Assembly: GCA_017503015.1 (NCBI GenBank)
Contig: JAFVTX010000015.1
Span: forward strand, 1-46,000
Length of the DNA: 46,000 nucleotides
Reading direction: 5' to 3'
DNA from: Fibrobacter sp.
Lineage (GTDB): Bacteria > Fibrobacterota > Fibrobacteria > Fibrobacterales > Fibrobacteraceae
The position numbers and the translations under genes were made by a program. Below are positions 15,344-24,183 of this stretch, piece by piece. A model generated the notes under the pieces. The model searched no databases, was not told the DNA's origin, and saw nothing but the letters and a program-made list of their open reading frames with translations. Position 1 is the stretch's first letter. Every line of letters begins with the position of its first letter.

Positions 15344-16654
15344 GTGGCTAAAATTGTATACCTAGGAATGATCGGGGATATCATGCACCCGGGCCTCATC
15401 AACATTATCAATGAAGGTGCCAAGTACGGTGACGTGATGATTGGACTTTTCACCGACAAGGCGATTGCGACCCATAAGCGTCTGCCTTACCTGAACTACG
15501 AGCAGCGCAAGAACGTGATTGAGAACATCCGCGGGGTCTCTAAGGTGGTTCCGCAGGATGAATGGAGTTACGTAGAAAATCTGAAGAAATACAAGCCCGA
15601 CTACATTATCCACGGCGATGACTGGCTTTACGGGCCGGACAAGTTCATCCGCGACGAAGTCTTCAAGGTGATGGAAGCCCAGGGCGGGAAGGTCATCGAG
15701 ATCCCGTACACCAAGGGGATCACCTCCGCCGGTCTCAAGAAGGAAATGGACTCCCTCGGAACGACCCCACAGGCGAGGCTTTCTTCATTACGTCGCCTGA
15801 TCGCGGCAAAGCCCATTGTCCGCATACTGGAATCGCACAACGGCCTTACGGGCCTCATCGCGGAACACACCAGCGTGGAGATAAACGGCTGCGTCCGCGA
15901 GTTTGACGGTATGTGGTCCTCATCCCTTACCGACTCCACCAGCAAGGGCAAGCCGGATATCGAGGCGGTGGACCTCACGACCCGCCTGCACGACCTGAAC
16001 GACACCCTTGAGGTCACGACCAAGCCAATCATCTTCGACGGCGACACGGGCGGAAAGGTGGAACACTTCGGCTTCACGGTGCGCACGCTCGAACGCCTCG
16101 GCATTTCCGCGGTGATCATCGAGGACAAGGTGGGCCTCAAGCAGAACTCGCTCTTCGGAACCGACGCCATCCAGACGCAGGACACCATCGAAGGGTTCTG
16201 CACCAAGATCCGTGCGGGCAAGGAAGCGCAGGTCACCGAGGACTTCATGGTGATTTCCCGCTGCGAATCCCTTATTGCGGGCAAGTCCGTGGACGACGCC
16301 CTGGAACGCTGCCACGCCTACGTGTCGGCGGGCACCGACGGCATCATGATCCACTCCAAGGACAAGAGCGGCGAGGACATCAAGGAATTCTGCAGGCGCT
16401 TCCGCGAGAAGGATGCTCACACTCCGATTGTCGCCGTGCCTACAACCTACAACCAGTTCACCGAAGAGGAACTGGCGACCTGGGGCATCAACATCGTCAT
16501 CTATGCAAACCACATGCTGCGTTCTGCATACCCTGCTATGGTGAAGTGCGCTGAATCTATCTTGACGCATAGCCGTAGCCTGGAAGCCTCCAACGACTAC
16601 TGCATGCCCATCAAGCAGATTCTGAACCTCATTCCCGGAACGATGAAGAAGTAA
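15344..16654 (+). CDS. pepM: Phosphoenolpyruvate mutase fused to a nucleotidyltransferase-like domain
   Basis: Start is GTG at 15344; GGAG lies 9 nt before it, and an ATG at 15331 is out of frame. The 436-residue protein has an N-terminal cytidylyltransferase-like domain (about 1-130; GDIMHPGLINII, LPYLNYEQRKNVIENI) and a C-terminal PEP mutase domain (about 145-430). The mutase motif EDKVGLKQNS (260-269) and the metal-binding FDGDTGG (231-237) are intact, as is MWSSSLTDSTSKGKPDIE. It makes the C-P bond, converting PEP to phosphonopyruvate, the first step of nearly all phosphonate synthesis. In the N-domain the usual HxGH motif reads HPGL, so nucleotidyl transfer may be altered. It is followed 13 nt later by the decarboxylase. 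Confidence 0.95.
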   Translation: MAKIVYLGMIGDIMHPGLINIINEGAKYGDVMIGLFTDKAIATHKRLPYLNYEQRKNVIENIRGVSKVVPQDEWSYVENLKKYKPDYIIHGDDWLYGPDKFIRDEVFKVMEAQGGKVIEIPYTKGITSAGLKKEMDSLGTTPQARLSSLRRLIAAKPIVRILESHNGLTGLIAEHTSVEINGCVREFDGMWSSSLTDSTSKGKPDIEAVDLTTRLHDLNDTLEVTTKPIIFDGDTGGKVEHFGFTVRTLERLGISAVIIEDKVGLKQNSLFGTDAIQTQDTIEGFCTKIRAGKEAQVTEDFMVISRCESLIAGKSVDDALERCHAYVSAGTDGIMIHSKDKSGEDIKEFCRRFREKDAHTPIVAVPTTYNQFTEEELATWGINIVIYANHMLRSAYPAMVKCAESILTHSRSLEASNDYCMPIKQILNLIPGTMKK

Positions 16655-16667
16655 CGGTATTCTATCT

Positions 16668-17795
16668 ATGATCAGCCCGAAGTTTTTTATCGACACGCTG
16701 GGCTCCTACGGCATTGACTTTTTTGCCGGAGTCCCCGATTCTTTGCTCAAGAACATCTGCGCCTACATTGCCGACAACAAGGATGCAAAGCATAACGTGA
16801 TTGCCGCGAACGAAGGCGCCGCTGTGGGACTTGCCGCGGGTTACCACCTGGCGACCGGCAACATCGGTGTTGTTTACATGCAGAATTCAGGCGAAGGCAA
16901 CATCATCAACCCGCTCGCTTCGCTTACGGACAAGGAAGTCTACAACATTCCGGTGCTGCTCCTCATTGGCTGGCGCGGTCGCCCCGGCGTTCATGACGAA
17001 CCGCAACACGTGAAGCAGGGCAAGGTGACGACCGGCATCCTCAATACGATGGGCGTGAATTACGACGTGCTCTGCAAGGAAGAGGACAAGGCGACAAAGC
17101 AGATTGCGAAGGCCGTCAAGACGATGAAGGAAACGGGCGAGGTCTATGCGCTTGTCATCGAGAAGGACTCCTTCGAGGATTACAAGCTCCAGAGCGTTGA
17201 GAAAAACGACCTCACGATGAGCCGCGAAGAAGCCATCCAGACGGTGGCTGCTGCGCTCGGCGAAAAGGACGTGATTGTCTCTACCACGGGCATGATCAGC
17301 CGCGAACTTTTTGAATACCGCGCCCAGAAGGGTGAAGGTCACGAGCGCGACTTCTTGACGGTGGGCTCCATGGGACACGCCTCGCAGATTGCGCTTGGCA
17401 TCGCGATGGAAAAGGAAGACCGCAAAGTATGGTGCTTTGACGGTGACGGTGCGACCATCATGCACATGGGTTCCATGGCGATTGTCGCGAGCAAGTCTCC
17501 TGCAAATTACGTTCACGTGGTATTCAACAACGGTGCACACGACTCTGTGGGCGGCCAGCCGACGGTGGGCTTGAAGATTGACCTTCCTGCAGTCGCGAAG
17601 GCCGTAGGTTATCGCGATGCCCTGACTGCCGACAGCAAGGAATCGCTTGCGGCGGCCCTCGGAAAGTTGAATGGCATGCAGGGCCCCGTGCTCCTCGAAG
17701 TCAAGGTGAAGAAGGGCAACCGCAAGGATCTGGGCCGCCCGACGACGACACCTATCGAAAACAAGAACGCGCTGATGGAGTTCCTGAGGAAATAA
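16668..17795 (+). CDS. ppd: Phosphonopyruvate decarboxylase
   Basis: This 375-residue thiamine diphosphate enzyme converts phosphonopyruvate to phosphonoacetaldehyde and makes the unfavourable mutase step irreversible. The N-terminal pyrimidine-binding half has FAGVPDSLLKNICAYI and AANEGAAVGLAAGYHLATG, with the conserved Glu. The C-terminal half has the cofactor-binding GDGATIMHMGSMAIVAS and NNGAHDSVGGQPT. It directly follows pepM, the standard pairing. Length and motifs look complete. Codon choice is GC-rich, like the other genes from pepM to 21457. Confidence 0.95.
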   Translation: MISPKFFIDTLGSYGIDFFAGVPDSLLKNICAYIADNKDAKHNVIAANEGAAVGLAAGYHLATGNIGVVYMQNSGEGNIINPLASLTDKEVYNIPVLLLIGWRGRPGVHDEPQHVKQGKVTTGILNTMGVNYDVLCKEEDKATKQIAKAVKTMKETGEVYALVIEKDSFEDYKLQSVEKNDLTMSREEAIQTVAAALGEKDVIVSTTGMISRELFEYRAQKGEGHERDFLTVGSMGHASQIALGIAMEKEDRKVWCFDGDGATIMHMGSMAIVASKSPANYVHVVFNNGAHDSVGGQPTVGLKIDLPAVAKAVGYRDALTADSKESLAAALGKLNGMQGPVLLEVKVKKGNRKDLGRPTTTPIENKNALMEFLRK

Positions 17796-17797
17796 AA

Positions 17798-18526
17798 ATG
17801 CGACTTGCCCTGTTGTCGGACATCCATGCGAACGTGACGGCATTGAATGCGGTGCTCGAAGAAGTTGGACGCCGCCATGTCGACAAGTTTGTGTTGCTGG
17901 GTGACCTTGTCAATTACGGCATGCGCCCGAACGAGATTGTAGAAATGGTCCGCGACATGGACGATAAGTTTGTCGCGAAGATTTGGGGCAACCACGAAAA
18001 GGCGGTGATGGACAACGATACGACCCGCTTTGCCACAGATCGCGGGCGCGCCATCCTCCACTATACGCAAAAGCGCCTCTCGCAGGAATCCATCGACTTC
18101 ATCAATAACAAGATGAACCGCGACGGCACTTGTTCCCTGGAAATCGACGGCAAAAAGTTCCTGCTGGTGCACGGCATCCCGGGCGACCCGTACTGGGGCA
18201 AGTTTACGCCGGCGGAACTCATGCGTGAAGAGTATGTTCCGTACGATTTCGTGCTGACGGCGCATTCCCATGTGTGCCATTACTTCGAGGTGCTTTTCAA
18301 GGCGGATTCTCCGAGCACGAGGAACAAGAAAAAAACCGTTTTTATCAATCCCGGTTCCGTCGGGCAGCCGCGCAACATCAATCCCTGCGCACAGTTCGGA
18401 ATTCTCGACACCGAGACGACGGAATACGAACATGTTTGTGTCCCGTACGATATCGTGGCGGAACAGGAACTTTATACGGACGAGGTAGATGTGTTCTACA
18501 AGGATCGTCTGACTTTAGGAATTTAA
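17798..18526 (+). CDS. Calcineurin-like metallophosphoesterase
   Basis: This 242-residue protein has all five metal-site blocks of the family in order: SDIHAN (7-12), GDLVNYG, GNHEK, a VHG block and AHSHV. It resembles the YfcE/ApaH-type small phosphodiesterase group. It starts 2 nt after the decarboxylase stop, so it is probably co-translated with the phosphonate genes. Its substrate is unknown; a phosphate or phosphodiester in phosphonate or nucleotide-phosphonate processing would fit the context. The Pfam-level family is certain; the role is inference. Confidence 0.85.
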   Translation: MRLALLSDIHANVTALNAVLEEVGRRHVDKFVLLGDLVNYGMRPNEIVEMVRDMDDKFVAKIWGNHEKAVMDNDTTRFATDRGRAILHYTQKRLSQESIDFINNKMNRDGTCSLEIDGKKFLLVHGIPGDPYWGKFTPAELMREEYVPYDFVLTAHSHVCHYFEVLFKADSPSTRNKKKTVFINPGSVGQPRNINPCAQFGILDTETTEYEHVCVPYDIVAEQELYTDEVDVFYKDRLTLGI

Positions 18527-18539
18527 ACAGAGGCTTAGC

Positions 18540-19538
18540 ATGAAGAAAAATCTGTATGTCATAAGTGGTGCCACCGGCATGACCGGCAGTGAACTTTCGC
18601 ACCAGCTGCTGAAAGAAGAAAACATCGTTGTCGGTTTTGACAACTTCTTCGCCAGTTCCATCGACACGGTCAAGGACCTGGTCGGTCGCGATGACTTTGT
18701 CTTTTTTGAATACGACATCAACAATGCCGAACACATGGCCGCTGTCGCCGACAAGGTGAAGAGCCTCAAGGGTTCGTATTCTGGCCGCCTGATATTTATC
18801 AACTGCGCTGCAGTAGTCCACACGAAGCATTTCTACGAAGTGGAACATACGTTCCAGACGAACGTCATCTCGATGAAGACCTTCCTCGAAATGGCAATCG
18901 CCCTCGGTGCCGACACCTACATCAACTGCTCTACCTCCGAAGTGTATTCCATGCAGTCGTGGAACGCGAACGGCGGCGTCCACGAAGACGATTTCTTGGT
19001 CATGGCGACGGCGGAACATAGCCAGCGCACAAGCTATGCGGTGGGCAAGCTCCTTACGGAATTCTTCATGAAGGATGCCGTGGACAAGGGCAAAATCAAG
19101 GGCTGCTCCATCCGCTTTGCGAACGTGTACAGCAAGCACGAACGCTTTGCCGACCACATTATCCCGCACATCATTAACAACCTTCTCGAAAAATCAGAAG
19201 TTACGTTGCTCGAGAATTCGAAGGTCAACAAGCGTACGTTCCTCCACAATATCGACAGCTGTCGCGCCGTGATGGAACTCATGGAATCGCCCGAAGCTCT
19301 CGACGGTACCGTCTATAACGTCGCGACCGACGAGGAAATCTCCATTGTGGACTTGACCAAGCTTATCGCGAAGAAGATGGGCATGGACGACGTGAAAATC
19401 AAGTTCGAAGGTTTCCGCAAGTCCGACCCGGAACGCCGCCTGCTCAATACCGACAAGATTCGTACGCGTACTCACTGGAAACCCATTGTGACTCTCGACG
19501 AAGGCCTTGAAATGTGCGTGAAGAGTATTGAAAGATGA
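18540..19538 (+). CDS. NAD-dependent epimerase/dehydratase (extended SDR)
   Basis: This 332-residue protein has the N-terminal nucleotide motif SGATGMTG (9-16), a catalytic Ser/Thr patch INCSTSEVYS (about 128-137) and YAVGK with Tyr166 and Lys170. It is close to GalE/RmlB-type sugar-nucleotide enzymes. Its substrate cannot be read from sequence. It lies between the metallophosphoesterase and a nucleotidyltransferase, with a 4-nt overlap to the latter, so it acts in the same pathway, possibly on the sugar that receives the phosphonate. Confidence 0.85.
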   Translation: MKKNLYVISGATGMTGSELSHQLLKEENIVVGFDNFFASSIDTVKDLVGRDDFVFFEYDINNAEHMAAVADKVKSLKGSYSGRLIFINCAAVVHTKHFYEVEHTFQTNVISMKTFLEMAIALGADTYINCSTSEVYSMQSWNANGGVHEDDFLVMATAEHSQRTSYAVGKLLTEFFMKDAVDKGKIKGCSIRFANVYSKHERFADHIIPHIINNLLEKSEVTLLENSKVNKRTFLHNIDSCRAVMELMESPEALDGTVYNVATDEEISIVDLTKLIAKKMGMDDVKIKFEGFRKSDPERRLLNTDKIRTRTHWKPIVTLDEGLEMCVKSIER

Positions 19539-20278
19539 AGTACTTGATTATTACTGTTGCCGGGACGGCGACCCGCTTTAACAGGGATACCGAAAAGGAA
19601 ACCCTGAAGTGCCTTTACTATAAGGATTCCCCGAAGTTTGCGCTGTTGAACCAGCTTATCAAAAACTGCGGTGAACACGACAAGTACATCATCGTGGGCG
19701 GTTACCTCTATTCGGCTCTCGAAGAATACGTGAAGGAAAATCTCCAGGCCTACGGCGACAAGATTGAACTGGTTTATAACGAGCACTTCAAGGACTACGG
19801 TTCGGGCTACAGCTTGTACAAGGGCATCGAGGCCGTGAAGAAACCGGGCAATGTCACCTTCGTCGAAGGCGACCTGTTCTTCTTGAAAGAAAATTTCAAG
19901 AAGGTCTACGATAGTGAGAAGAGCGTGCTCACGATAAACCGTGAACCCATCTATTCGAACAAGGCTGTGGCGCTTTATGTATCAACGGATGGCCGCCCCC
20001 ATTACCTGTACGACACGAACCATTCTTCGCTTACGATTCCGGAACCGTTCCTGGCGGTATTCAATTCTGCGCAGATGTGGAAGTTCCAGTCGGCAGAAAA
20101 ACTGCACGAGGCCGTCGCATCCCTTACCGAAAAACAGCTCCAGGGTACGAACCTCGAGATTATCCAGGCGTATTTCAACAGGCTCTCCCGTGAAGAATAT
20201 GACGTGGTCACGTTCGATGCCTGGTACAACTGTAACACCGTTGTGGACTACAACATTGTCCGCGAACTTATGGAGTAA
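19535..20278 (+). CDS. LicC/PntC-like nucleotidyltransferase
   Basis: This 247-residue protein has a Rossmann-like nucleotidyltransferase fold: TVAGTATRFN (7-16) in place of the common GxGxR loop, a KCLYY patch, and EGDLFFL near residue 107 with the metal-binding Asp. YGSGYSLYKGIEAV resembles the substrate region of choline-phosphate cytidylyltransferases (LicC) and of phosphonate cytidylyltransferases (PntC). Its position after pepM-ppd suggests it makes a CMP-activated phosphonate for transfer to glycan. Unlike the Treponema type PntC, no aminotransferase domain is fused. ATGA overlap with the SDR gene indicates coupled translation. Confidence 0.7.
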   Translation: MKYLIITVAGTATRFNRDTEKETLKCLYYKDSPKFALLNQLIKNCGEHDKYIIVGGYLYSALEEYVKENLQAYGDKIELVYNEHFKDYGSGYSLYKGIEAVKKPGNVTFVEGDLFFLKENFKKVYDSEKSVLTINREPIYSNKAVALYVSTDGRPHYLYDTNHSSLTIPEPFLAVFNSAQMWKFQSAEKLHEAVASLTEKQLQGTNLEIIQAYFNRLSREEYDVVTFDAWYNCNTVVDYNIVRELME

Positions 20279-20281
20279 GAT

Positions 20282-21457
20282 ATGGATATCCTGAACAAGA
20301 AAATTGCCTTGCTCAAGTCCAAGGTCGAAAAGAACGAGACGATTACGATCATGATTATCGGGCTCGGGAGCGTCGGTACGTTCCTGCTCGACTTTTTGGT
20401 GAGCCTCCGTGACCCGCAGCTGAAAATTGTGGTCGCAGGCCGCAATGCCGCCAAGATGCAGATGGACGTGAACATCGTCCGCACGGCAGCGACAATCCGT
20501 CGCGAACTGCGCAGCCAGATTGAAATTCTCGGCGACTGCGACCTGAACGATGTCGACAGCATCGCCGCGACCATCAAGAAGGCTAATCCCGACTTTATCG
20601 TGAACAGCAGCCGCGTGTATTCGGGCCTCAAGTACGGGAGCATCTCGTGGAGCAACCTGCGCGCTTACGGCATCTGGTCTCCGCTTTCTATCCGTTACGC
20701 GAAGAACATCATGGCCGCTTACGAAAAGACTGGCTCGAACGCCGTCACCATCAATACCTCGTATTCCGATGCCGTGATCCCCTGGCTCAAGTCTGCGGGC
20801 AAGACTTACTTTGATTTCGGTAGCGGTAACCTGAACCACCTGATTCCGCGCATGAAGTTCTTCATGGCCAAAAAGTACAACATCGACAACCTGAACGATA
20901 TCGATGTGACACTTGCGGTGAGCCATTTCCACGACGTGGTGATTTCCAAGGAAGGCCACGCCGAAGGCCAGACGCTGCTCTTGAATTTCAAGAAGGATGG
21001 AAAGGACTTGCCTTTTGACCAGGCCGAAGTGCTTGCTGCCTGCTCCATCCCGATGCCTGTAGATCAGAAGCGCAACATGATGAACGCTTCGAGCAATTTC
21101 AACATAATTGATTCCATCTTGACCGCTCTCCGCGAAAAGACGGTGACCAAGGTGCATGCGCCCGGTGTCGATGGCGAAATCGGGGGCTACCCGGTACTCA
21201 TTGACGGTGCGAAGGCGGAAGTCTCTTTCGATACTTCGCTCTTTGGCATGGACGACATGCGTGCTGCAAACCGCAAGTCTATTTACTGCGACGGCATCGA
21301 AAACGTGGAAAACGGTACGCTCGTCTATACCGACGAACTTGTGGCGAAGGTGAAGAAGGCTTTCAACGTCGATTTGCCGAAGCGCGTCGCGTTCGAAGAC
21401 ATCGAGAAGACGGCCGACTTTATCATCAAGAACATTATCGAGCCGTTTGTCAAATAA
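20282..21457 (+). CDS. Unassigned Rossmann-fold oxidoreductase in the phosphonate cluster
   Basis: This 391-residue protein has an N-terminal NAD(P)-binding motif MIIGLGSVGTFLLDFL (about 24-39), VAGRN after strand 2, and NPDFIVNSSRVYSG. It looks distantly like saccharopine-dehydrogenase-type or malate-dehydrogenase-type enzymes, but I cannot place it. It is 3 nt after the nucleotidyltransferase. Since no transaminase is present, it could act on phosphonoacetaldehyde, either by reduction to the hydroxyethyl compound or by reductive condensation with an amine as saccharopine reductase does. Both ideas are inference from context. Confidence 0.6.
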   Translation: MDILNKKIALLKSKVEKNETITIMIIGLGSVGTFLLDFLVSLRDPQLKIVVAGRNAAKMQMDVNIVRTAATIRRELRSQIEILGDCDLNDVDSIAATIKKANPDFIVNSSRVYSGLKYGSISWSNLRAYGIWSPLSIRYAKNIMAAYEKTGSNAVTINTSYSDAVIPWLKSAGKTYFDFGSGNLNHLIPRMKFFMAKKYNIDNLNDIDVTLAVSHFHDVVISKEGHAEGQTLLLNFKKDGKDLPFDQAEVLAACSIPMPVDQKRNMMNASSNFNIIDSILTALREKTVTKVHAPGVDGEIGGYPVLIDGAKAEVSFDTSLFGMDDMRAANRKSIYCDGIENVENGTLVYTDELVAKVKKAFNVDLPKRVAFEDIEKTADFIIKNIIEPFVK

Positions 21458-21458
21458 A

Positions 21459-22907
21459 ATGGCCTCCATAAAACAACAGACGATCAATAGTTCTAAATGG
21501 AACTTCATTGAGCGTGTTTCAACCCAAGGAATTCAATTTTTCCTTGGCATCATTATGGCCAGGCTCCTAGTCCCAGCTGATTTTGGGATAATAGGCATTC
21601 TTGCAATTTTTTTCACCATCTCCCAAACAATCATTGATAGTGGATTCAACGCGGCCCTCATCCGAAAAAAAGACGTTTCCGAAAAAGACCTAAGTACTGT
21701 TTTTTTCTTCAACATCTCTGTATCCATAATCGCATACGCGATATTGTTTTTCACTGCGCCGTGGATTGCTGATTTCTTTGGAATATCCATCATCAAAAAT
21801 GTTCTAAGGGTTCAATCAGTCATCTTAATCATCAACGCAATTGTTGCTGTTCAAGTCGCCATTCTCAACATCAAACTGGACTTTCGGTCTCTCGCCAAAA
21901 GAAATGTAGCGTCCACCTTAATCTCTGGATGTTCTGGTGTTTCCCTTGCATACTTAGGCTTCGGAGTTTGGGCACTCGTTTACCAACAAATCATTGCGGC
22001 AGTCGTCAACCTTATAATTATAAGCTTCATCTGCAGATGGTACCCCAAAACCTGGATTAGTAAAAATTCATTCAAAAGTTTAGGCTCTTTTGGAAGCAAA
22101 CTTTTAATCTCTAGTTTAATTCACACTTTTTATGTAAATTTAACCACATTTGTTATAGGAAAATTCTATTCCGCAAAAGACCTTGGTTTCTACACAAGAG
22201 GGCTTCACTTCGCCGAATTGCCTAACAACACCGTAAACGGAGTTCTTGGGACCGTCACCTATCCAATTCTTTCTCGAATACAAGACGATGACGATAATCT
22301 GATCAGAGTGTACAGGCGATATATCAAAATTTCTTCTTTGGTCATTTTTATATCAGCCGGGTTAATCTGTGCACTCGCCAAGCCCATCGTACTCCTATGC
22401 CTTTCCGACAAATGGGCAGAATCCATTATCTTTCTTCATATTTTCGCGTTTTCAGGGATGTTCGACCACCTAAGTACAATCAATCTAAATCTTCTAAAAG
22501 TCAAAGGCCGATCGGATTTATTCTTGAAACTCGAAATAATCAAAAAAAGCATCTCTATTGCAATGCTTGTAGTCGCTATTCCACATGGCGTCCTGGCAAT
22601 ATGCATTTCCAGACTACTGTATAATCAAATTGCTGTATTCATCAACACCTACTACACCGGGAAGCTCTTTAAATTGGGCTATATACAGCAAATCAAAGAC
22701 TTTTCCCCCTATTTACGTTGTTGCCTCGCCGGATGCATTCCCGCCTATCTTATTACTTTACTAGATTATCCACATATTGTCACGATTTTATTAGGTGCAA
22801 CTATATCTTTTTCAATTTACTGGTTTTTGCTTCGCAAAGATCAAGAAATGCAAGAAGTTGTTAGGATTGCTACAAAAATGCTAAGAGGAAATCATGAAAA
22901 TTCTTAG
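21459..22907 (+). CDS. Wzx-type lipopolysaccharide/O-unit flippase
   Basis: ATG at 21459 (MASIKQQTINSSKWNFIERV) is 1 nt after the upstream stop; a TTG at 21447 in frame is less likely. The 482-residue protein has about 12-14 hydrophobic helices and matches the polysaccharide transport family (ASIKQQTINSSKW at the N-terminus, LLVPADFGIIGI). It would move the undecaprenyl-linked repeat unit across the inner membrane. Codon use turns strongly AT-rich exactly here, compared with the GC-rich genes just upstream. Confidence 0.92.
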   Translation: MASIKQQTINSSKWNFIERVSTQGIQFFLGIIMARLLVPADFGIIGILAIFFTISQTIIDSGFNAALIRKKDVSEKDLSTVFFFNISVSIIAYAILFFTAPWIADFFGISIIKNVLRVQSVILIINAIVAVQVAILNIKLDFRSLAKRNVASTLISGCSGVSLAYLGFGVWALVYQQIIAAVVNLIIISFICRWYPKTWISKNSFKSLGSFGSKLLISSLIHTFYVNLTTFVIGKFYSAKDLGFYTRGLHFAELPNNTVNGVLGTVTYPILSRIQDDDDNLIRVYRRYIKISSLVIFISAGLICALAKPIVLLCLSDKWAESIIFLHIFAFSGMFDHLSTINLNLLKVKGRSDLFLKLEIIKKSISIAMLVVAIPHGVLAICISRLLYNQIAVFINTYYTGKLFKLGYIQQIKDFSPYLRCCLAGCIPAYLITLLDYPHIVTILLGATISFSIYWFLLRKDQEMQEVVRIATKMLRGNHENS

Positions 22908-24183
22908 AAAAGCACATACCCTTTTTGATACATTTGTCAACTCTATAACGAAAAAAGATAGCCATTCCATACTCTTTTACCCCCATCAAAATTGCCTTGC
23001 GGACAACTACGACATTTTTAACGGAGATTCAAGTAATACATTATGCCTTTTAAAGAGCATCATAAGCGATATTCAATTTGATGGTTATCGGCTTTACGTT
23101 GTGTATTACCACAAGGACAAGTTACAATCTTATATCGAATACAGCAAGTCCATCCAAAACAAAGAAATCCTATTCATTTACGAAAAAGATTATTCCACAT
23201 TTAAAAAAGCTTTTATTAAATGCCCTACAGTTTTTACAGACTGTGATTACATTACATTCCCCTATAGAGTCCATTCACAGACTATTATTTGCTTAAATTA
23301 CTATGCTGGTCCATTTAAAAAAGAATTTCATCGATGGACAAACCATGGTGGATTCAAAAGATACCTAAAGGAACAAAAGAAAAAATTTAGGGAATACGAT
23401 TACCATTTATCAATTTCGGACATCTTTTCCAAACTCATTGCTGTTGACATTGGTCATTATTATCCACATCTTCTTTCCCTTGGCTTTCCTCGAAACGATG
23501 TCCTTTTAAACAAAAATACCAACCTTCGCAACGAAATAGAAAAACAGATCGGATTCAAAATAAATCACTTAATAACATACGTCCCAACGCATCGTGATTA
23601 TGAAAATCCCGGACGCGAGTTTTATTCCCCTGACCAGGTAAAAACAAGATCTATCTGGGGCAACGTTTCAAACGATGAACTCAATGCTTTAGAAAACTTT
23701 TTGGAAGAATCCGGCACGGTAATTATTGCTAAGGCGCACGCAATTCAAGCGGCACAAGTATCCAACGTAAAAAAAGAGAACAGCAAATGCATCCTGTTTT
23801 TTGACGATTTAATCAAAAAAATCAATACAAGCCTATATCCCATTTTATCCATATCGGACGCCATCATATCGGATTACACCTCTACCGCCTACGATTTCCT
23901 TTACACCGGACGTCCTATCATCTATTATTTTTTCGATATTGATGCTTACCGAGCGGCAAGAGGTTTTTTCATAGAACCCATAGAATCTATTTGCGCCGGC
24001 CACTTGACATACAATATCAACGAACTAATCGAAGCCATCAAGGACGTAATAAACGGCAATGACCCATACAAAGCAAAAAGAGAAGTTCTTCAACAAATTT
24101 TTGCTCCTCACATAGACAACCATTCAACCGAGCGGATAAAAAATTTCTTTTTCGGCCCTAAAAAAAAGGATAAATTTCCGTGA
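22894..24183 (+). CDS. CDP-glycerol glycerophosphotransferase family protein (TagB/TagF-like), first copy
   Basis: This 429-residue protein has the family motifs YVPTHRDYENPGREFY (about 230-245) and IISDYTSTAYDFLYTGRPII (about 325-345), with the His and Asp/Ser residues used for CDP-linked donors. Family members transfer glycerol- or ribitol-phosphate from CDP donors to glycans. Here it may use a CMP-phosphonate made by the genes upstream, since it is on the same transcript. It overlaps the flippase gene by 14 nt and has AGAGGAAATC just before the ATG. AT-rich like the flippase. Confidence 0.85.
   Translation: MKILRKAHTLFDTFVNSITKKDSHSILFYPHQNCLADNYDIFNGDSSNTLCLLKSIISDIQFDGYRLYVVYYHKDKLQSYIEYSKSIQNKEILFIYEKDYSTFKKAFIKCPTVFTDCDYITFPYRVHSQTIICLNYYAGPFKKEFHRWTNHGGFKRYLKEQKKKFREYDYHLSISDIFSKLIAVDIGHYYPHLLSLGFPRNDVLLNKNTNLRNEIEKQIGFKINHLITYVPTHRDYENPGREFYSPDQVKTRSIWGNVSNDELNALENFLEESGTVIIAKAHAIQAAQVSNVKKENSKCILFFDDLIKKINTSLYPILSISDAIISDYTSTAYDFLYTGRPIIYYFFDIDAYRAARGFFIEPIESICAGHLTYNINELIEAIKDVINGNDPYKAKREVLQQIFAPHIDNHSTERIKNFFFGPKKKDKFP

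Follow-up and report, generated by a model that had tools for sequence, protein, structure and literature searches.

Most bacterial capacity for making phosphonates serves cell-surface tailoring. The later steps of this tailoring were called enigmatic by Rice et al. (2019; PMC6697681), and the words dehydrogenase and reductase are absent from the main text of that paper. The closest described systems of phosphonate activation are those of Fom1 and PntC (PMC6697681). The locus analyzed here resembles them in having a Fom1-type cytidylyltransferase (CyTase) domain on its PEP mutase (PepM) and a LicC/PntC-like nucleotidyltransferase, DUF6564. It differs from them in that the CyTase domain carries HPGL in place of HxGH and in that DUF6564 is a separate family.

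The locus is part of a 46,000-nucleotide stretch of DNA from a Fibrobacter sp., which we call the window. Six genes make up a phosphonate cassette, which encodes a fusion of an N-terminal Fom1-type CyTase domain with a C-terminal PEP mutase, phosphonopyruvate decarboxylase (Ppd), a metallophosphoesterase (MPE), an SDR, DUF6564, and the protein of interest here, hereafter the target (Table 1). PepM would form phosphonopyruvate, and decarboxylation by Ppd would yield phosphonoacetaldehyde. The DUF6564 fold is close to those of inositol-1-phosphate cytidylyltransferase, LicC, and PntC-AEPT, and the protein would convert the finished product to a CMP conjugate, from which a LicD- or TagF-type transferase would pass it to a surface glycan. 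LicD probes match 40 of the 51 target loci described below. No LicD match was found in the window, where a TagF-like protein is present instead, and LicD was rejected as the transferase there.

Table 1. Features of the phosphonate cassette and the genes that follow it (window positions).
Feature	Position	Strand	Evidence and remarks
CyTase-PepM fusion	15344..16654	+	TIGR02320, 405.9 bits; PF01467; PDB 5x3d (Fom1 CyTase), E 6e-44
Ppd, phosphonopyruvate decarboxylase (product phosphonoacetaldehyde)	16668..17795	+	TIGR03297, 522.7 bits, above cut-off
MPE, calcineurin-like (YfcE-like) metallophosphoesterase	17798..18526	+	PF12850; cassette position kept; homolog in phage Va2
Extended SDR, epimerase/dehydratase type, YxxxK	18540..19538	+	PF01370; in nearly all cassettes
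DUF6564 nucleotidyltransferase, LicC/PntC-like fold	19535..20278	+	PF20202, 311 bits
Target, LDH/MDH-fold, probably NADP(H)-dependent oxidoreductase	20282..21457	+	AlphaFold2, Foldseek, VIA, weak hhalign register
Wzx-type flippase	21447..22907	+	PF13440; glycan export context, not a conserved cassette part
TagF/TarF-like glycerophosphotransferase	22894..24183	+	PF04464; candidate for transferring the CMP-activated group

The target open reading frame has an ATG start and encodes 391 amino acids; it begins a few bases 3' of the DUF6564 gene, and its end overlaps the flippase gene. The original prediction had been unable to place the protein in a family, and indeed no curated family claims it. 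An NCBIfam profile search gave no match above cut-off, and neither phmmer nor hmmsearch found a significant sequence relative in the PDB. The best Pfam match is to the saccharopine dehydrogenase NADP-binding domain (Sacchrp_dh_NADP, PF03435); it covers residues 23 to 111 only and scores 23.6 bits, below the cut-off of 25.1. The carboxynorspermidine dehydrogenase equivalog NF043000, whose cut-off is 800 bits, gives 13.3. Since some relatives score higher on PF03435 (best E, 4.7e-8), automatic annotation may name the family saccharopine dehydrogenase, a reading against which we caution. The nearest matches are Fibrobacter succinogenes metagenome-assembled genomes (MAGs), with up to 100% identity over the best segment, and full-length homologs occur in other phyla at 55 to 67% identity with about 100 invariant columns. 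Given this conservation across phyla, the alignments argue that the family is real far beyond chance.

An AlphaFold2 model of the target, built with 31 relatives, has a mean pLDDT of 90.3 and a pTM of 0.92; it is soft only around residues 111 to 130, in a flexible loop after the fourth strand. The GLGSVG motif that had been read as part of an N-terminal dinucleotide fold (residues 27 to 32) does lie in a Rossmann fold of the model. In a Foldseek search of the PDB, the best 50 listed matches are all lactate or malate dehydrogenases (LDH/MDH; best E, 2.0e-8; probability, 1.00), and the same is true of the 50 best listed by VIA-align (Z of 21.4 over 281 to 292 residues, at 11 to 17% identity). 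No saccharopine-, opine-, or carboxynorspermidine-type enzyme is among the 50 matches listed by either program, an absence that is not excluding in itself. The predicted fold is thus that of LDH/MDH rather than, as far as these lists show, that of saccharopine dehydrogenase, whose likeness to the target is weak, confined to the Rossmann half, and below the family cut-off, with the remainder of the protein unmatched; we rejected a saccharopine or carboxynorspermidine dehydrogenase identity on this basis. Of the two families between which the original prediction had wavered, the saccharopine-like one, with its reductive amination, is therefore not borne out, whereas the malate dehydrogenase-like one is supported at the level of the fold, and with it the view that a simple alcohol is the likelier product.

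The target shares with the LDH/MDH superfamily (Ldh_1) a fold over about 285 residues, the Rossmann GxGxxG motif, the flexible loop after the fourth strand, a His ending the equivalent strand, and an Arg in the equivalent helix. An hhalign comparison with MDH using a wider alignment is weak (probability, 3.5%; E, 0.012) and in register, and with E. coli MDH as a single sequence no match was obtained. In this weak alignment, the catalytic His of E. coli MDH (H177; LDH H195) falls on H215, which is invariant across all compared sequences, distant homologs included, and the Arg that binds the substrate carboxylate (R153; LDH R171) falls on R190, which does not vary within the pepM-linked clade. 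By contrast, the dyad Asp that pairs with the His (D150; LDH D168) falls on L187, and this Leu is invariant in the same clade. The target also has conserved motifs of its own (INTSYSDAVIPW, DFGSGNxNHLxPR, HFHDVxISKEG, MPxDQKRNMMNASSN, and GGYP) and does not match the Ldh_1 profiles PF00056 and PF02866 at an E value of 0.1; neither profile is among the families listed at an E value of 1 for 31 members of the target family. Two features of Ldh_1 membership, the sequence profile and, by this weak alignment, the dyad Asp, are therefore lacking, and for this reason the target should be treated as a separate family. The model suggests an enzyme with the shape, and probably the mode of action, of an LDH/MDH. 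Its second strand has no terminal Asp and bears an invariant R54, which points to NADP(H) as the cofactor, so that the target is probably an NADP(H)-dependent oxidoreductase. The host carries a separate, ordinary MDH as well. By eye, the LNH and HFHD motifs of GH4 hydrolases, which belong to the same fold class, resemble those of the target; hhalign comparison with the single sequences of MelA and ChbF gave no match with a target profile that is shallow (Neff of 2). PbfF, an NAD-dependent HAEP racemase, was considered as a precedent and set aside as unrelated (pfam02826, with a D-lactate-dehydrogenase-like structure).

How might such a protein serve a phosphonate pathway? We tentatively favor the reading in which the target, as an LDH/MDH-fold and probably NADP(H)-dependent oxidoreductase of phosphonate biosynthesis, would reduce phosphonoacetaldehyde to 2-hydroxyethylphosphonate (HEP), with H215 as the proton donor and with R190 and other basic residues holding the phosphonate. 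We infer the catalytic residues, substrate, direction, and product, and on our best reading the substrate would be phosphonoacetaldehyde or its immediate product. We count the fold, the linkage to pepM, the exclusion of other finishing enzymes, and the gene set of a phage, the last three of which are described below, in favor of this reading. Against it we count the replacement of the dyad Asp by L187 together with the weakness of the hhalign alignment, and also the fact that LDH/MDH enzymes normally act on 2-hydroxy or 2-keto acids, not on aldehydes.

To place the target in its genomic context, we compared 51 homologous loci from Fibrobacter, Bacteroidales/Prevotella, Lachnospiraceae and other Bacillota, Methanobrevibacter, Treponema, and a Thermoguttaceae MAG. 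A PepM gene lies near the target in 41 of these loci, in Bacteria and Archaea alike; in nine of the other ten, the relevant flank ends at a contig end, and the tenth (L051) is a 65-amino-acid remnant without pepM. Linkage to pepM is thus conserved among close homologs. It does not extend to distant ones (23 to 28% identity, eight loci examined), and the association of homologs with pepM on which the original prediction had been staked holds for the first group and not for the second. The position of the target is less constant: it ends the phosphonate module in the window, as had been stated, whereas Ppd follows it in archaea and Lachnospiraceae and PepM-Ppd follow it in Hoylesella. Since glycan genes are its neighbors, the target could instead supply that surface glycan with a sugar or polyol, its link to pepM reflecting only the clustering of glycan loci. 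We consider this the least probable of the readings, since the surrounding glycan genes change from one phylum to another and the cassette, together with pepM, is preserved whole.

MPE, SDR, and DUF6564 adjoin the target in nearly all 51 loci, and strong full-length DUF6564 matches adjoin it in the same Fibrobacter genomes. There are two exceptions. The Thermoguttaceae locus (L048, 4036-9137) keeps PepM, Ppd, MPE, DUF6564, and the target without the SDR, which we count in favor of the target carrying out the carbonyl step; a second Fibrobacter copy (L011) keeps SDR and target and has neither MPE nor DUF6564. Some Bacteroidales cassettes are interrupted by a CTP_transf-GFO_IDH fusion, a short SDR, and LicD (L015, 4296-5645; L028, 4249-5610), and in one Fibrobacter locus (L002, 1689-4080) a target cassette that is otherwise normal is preceded by an inverted Ppd, 49% identical to that of the window, with a class I/II aminotransferase adjacent to this Ppd.

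The pairwise divergence of the target correlates with that of MPE, SDR, and DUF6564 at r values of 0.93 to 0.94 and with that of PepM at 0.82, and the four genes covary at r values of 0.91 to 0.94 as one block in bacteria and archaea. This block suggests a different role, at a later or carrier-bound step. DUF6564 would first make a CMP conjugate, SDR and target would oxidize or reduce it, and MPE would cleave a phosphoester, giving an undescribed head group distinct from both AEP and HEP. The usual substrates of extended SDRs are nucleotide-linked, and all four genes together would be superfluous for simple HEP or AEP. A one-step reduction needs neither an MPE nor a second dehydrogenase, which counts against the HEP reading, and the neighboring SDR could equally reduce the aldehyde. 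Because MPE and SDR would have nothing to do in a bare reduction, we hold the later-step reading to be nearly as likely as the reduction of phosphonoacetaldehyde. What speaks against it is that the L011 block persists without MPE and DUF6564, so that coupling to a CMP intermediate is not universal, and that it calls for a nucleotide-substrate site that is so far hypothetical.

The sister loci of Fibrobacter bear directly on the carbonyl step. Among 80 Fibrobacter genomes, 24 encode PEP mutase, 20 the target, 4 PhnW, and 3 an iron alcohol dehydrogenase (Fe-ADH) linked to the cluster, and no genome has two of the last three (P = 0.0005 for zero overlap among pepM genomes, a statistic that ignores kinship). 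Genomes G078, G098, and G111, which appeared to have the target without pepM, were discarded as such cases because the target or its cassette ends at a contig end. G133 and G116 combine PhnW with Ppd and a CyTase-PepM that is 94 to 98% identical per domain to that of the window. The CyTase-PepM of G102, G122, and G065 is more distant, and Fe-ADH and Ppd come after it; in the two of these three that were measured, the PEP mutase domain is 80% and the CyTase domain 51% identical to that of the window. G110 has PepM-Ppd followed by a LicC-like NTP transferase, and two PepM copies. The sister loci with other tails are L083, L084, L085, L086, and L088. A near-identical PepM-Ppd head (95 to 97% identity between the window and the PhnW-bearing sister genomes) thus carries different tails, of which the block of MPE, SDR, DUF6564, and target is one swappable finishing tail. 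PhnW/AepZ (TIGR03301) and the cluster Fe-ADH (PF00465) fill the same slot as the target beside CyTase-PepM and Ppd, although their folds and chemistry are unrelated to its own. The target seems to take the place of these usual finishing enzymes and would replace PhnW (transamination) or Fe-ADH (reduction) at the carbonyl step. The mutual exclusion also speaks against a sugar- or polyol-making role. Given a defined gene block, a predicted fold, residues that may be catalytic, and swap partners that nature provides on near-identical heads, the fate of phosphonoacetaldehyde where PhnW and Fe-ADH are missing becomes a direct enzyme question.

The exclusion of PhnW agrees with the earlier view that the target sits in the slot usually held by a transaminase, which does not in itself establish amination. 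The target might nonetheless perform a reductive amination in PhnW's stead, with ammonia, an amine, or an amino acid as the partner of phosphonoacetaldehyde. The CyTase domain of the window (15344-15760) is 94 to 95% identical to that of the PhnW type and both have HPGL, so that the CyTase may expect the same amine, and the subthreshold PF03435 match would fit as well. The LDH/MDH fold makes amination less likely, with no saccharopine-, opine-, or carboxynorspermidine-type enzyme among the best structural matches listed. HPGL also occurs in the target-type loci of Fibrobacter, Bacteroidales, and Hoylesella, and HPGI occurs in Treponema, whereas the second His is kept in Fom1 (HPGH), in the Fe-ADH type (HHGH), and in the target-type loci of archaea and Lachnospiraceae (HDGH or HEGH). 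Both His residues of HxGH are important in this enzyme class. The motif therefore suggests that the fused CyTase may be impaired and that DUF6564 may perform the activation instead, in which case the identity of the CyTase may tell little about the product. Since the CyTase matches the PhnW type and not the HHGH of the Fe-ADH type, the cassette is unlike the Fe-ADH one, which we also count against the reduction to HEP.

Nearly the same gene set is found in a phage. Vibrio phage Va2 (MW073017.1) has homologs of five of the six cassette genes (PepM, Ppd, SDR, MPE, and target), which share one strand and lie in the region from 86 to 123 kb (L130, 12007-13158; L138, 6838-24526). Its target homolog shares at best 32% identity (E, 6e-55), its SDR 34%, and its MPE (121782-122525) 35% with the MPE of the window and 41% with the best other. 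Va2 also encodes a Ppd-like protein and one that resembles PEP mutase and contains EDKNPSAKINS; the latter scores 89 bits where the cut-off is 320, a divergence that leaves its activity uncertain. Among 50,697 phage records, Va2 is the sole carrier of a target homolog and the sole MPE match at an E value of 1e-10, and IMG/VR viral contigs yielded no further homologs. The only confident viral structural match in BFVD is A0A873WBD4 (383 amino acids; TM score, 0.83 to 0.85), which has the same length as the Va2 homolog, and we infer that it is that protein. In the Va2 record, 111069-111530 is named epimerase and 111676-112713 metallophosphatase; the latter is in fact the SDR.

Independent evidence for joint action of target, MPE, and SDR with PepM and Ppd comes from the Va2 gene set. 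The retention of all five together favors the later-step reading, and the fact that no DUF6564 was detected in Va2 weighs against it; a C-terminal extension of the Va2 PepM was considered as a DUF6564 equivalent and found no support. No glycan locus is evident in the parts of Va2 viewed, which tells against the target as a maker of glycan sugars. As for the purpose of a phage phosphonate, modification of DNA or capsid is a guess. The target is a new, unnamed enzyme type with the shape of a malate or lactate dehydrogenase, which travels with genes for making the C-P bond in gut bacteria, archaea, and one virus. It is possible, and we hold this only tentatively, that MPE, SDR, DUF6564, and target constitute an undescribed finishing pathway, with this family at its center, whose head group would differ from AEP and HEP and which gut bacteria would share with methanogenic archaea and a Vibrio phage (there with no detectable DUF6564).

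More distant homologs, at 23 to 28% identity, are found in 15 plasmid records from rhizobia, Rhodobacterales, and Planktothrix. No pepM was found near them in the eight loci examined, with tblastn of the cassette included, which suggests that the wider superfamily has other substrates; the rhizobial and Planktothrix loci lend the sugar or polyol reading some support. The Va2 homolog retains R111, K117, R190, and the K263-R264 pair, which most distant relatives do not have. The obvious residues to suspect of binding the phosphonate are the basic ones that set the pepM-linked and phage clade apart. On the rhizobial plasmids (L110, L111, L112, L115, and L116), the distant homologs lie in a recurrent cluster with an alanine-racemase-like protein, a HAD hydrolase (TIGR01459), a DMT transporter, and a C45 peptidase, and such clusters often include an opine-oxidase-like FAD/2Fe-2S trio.
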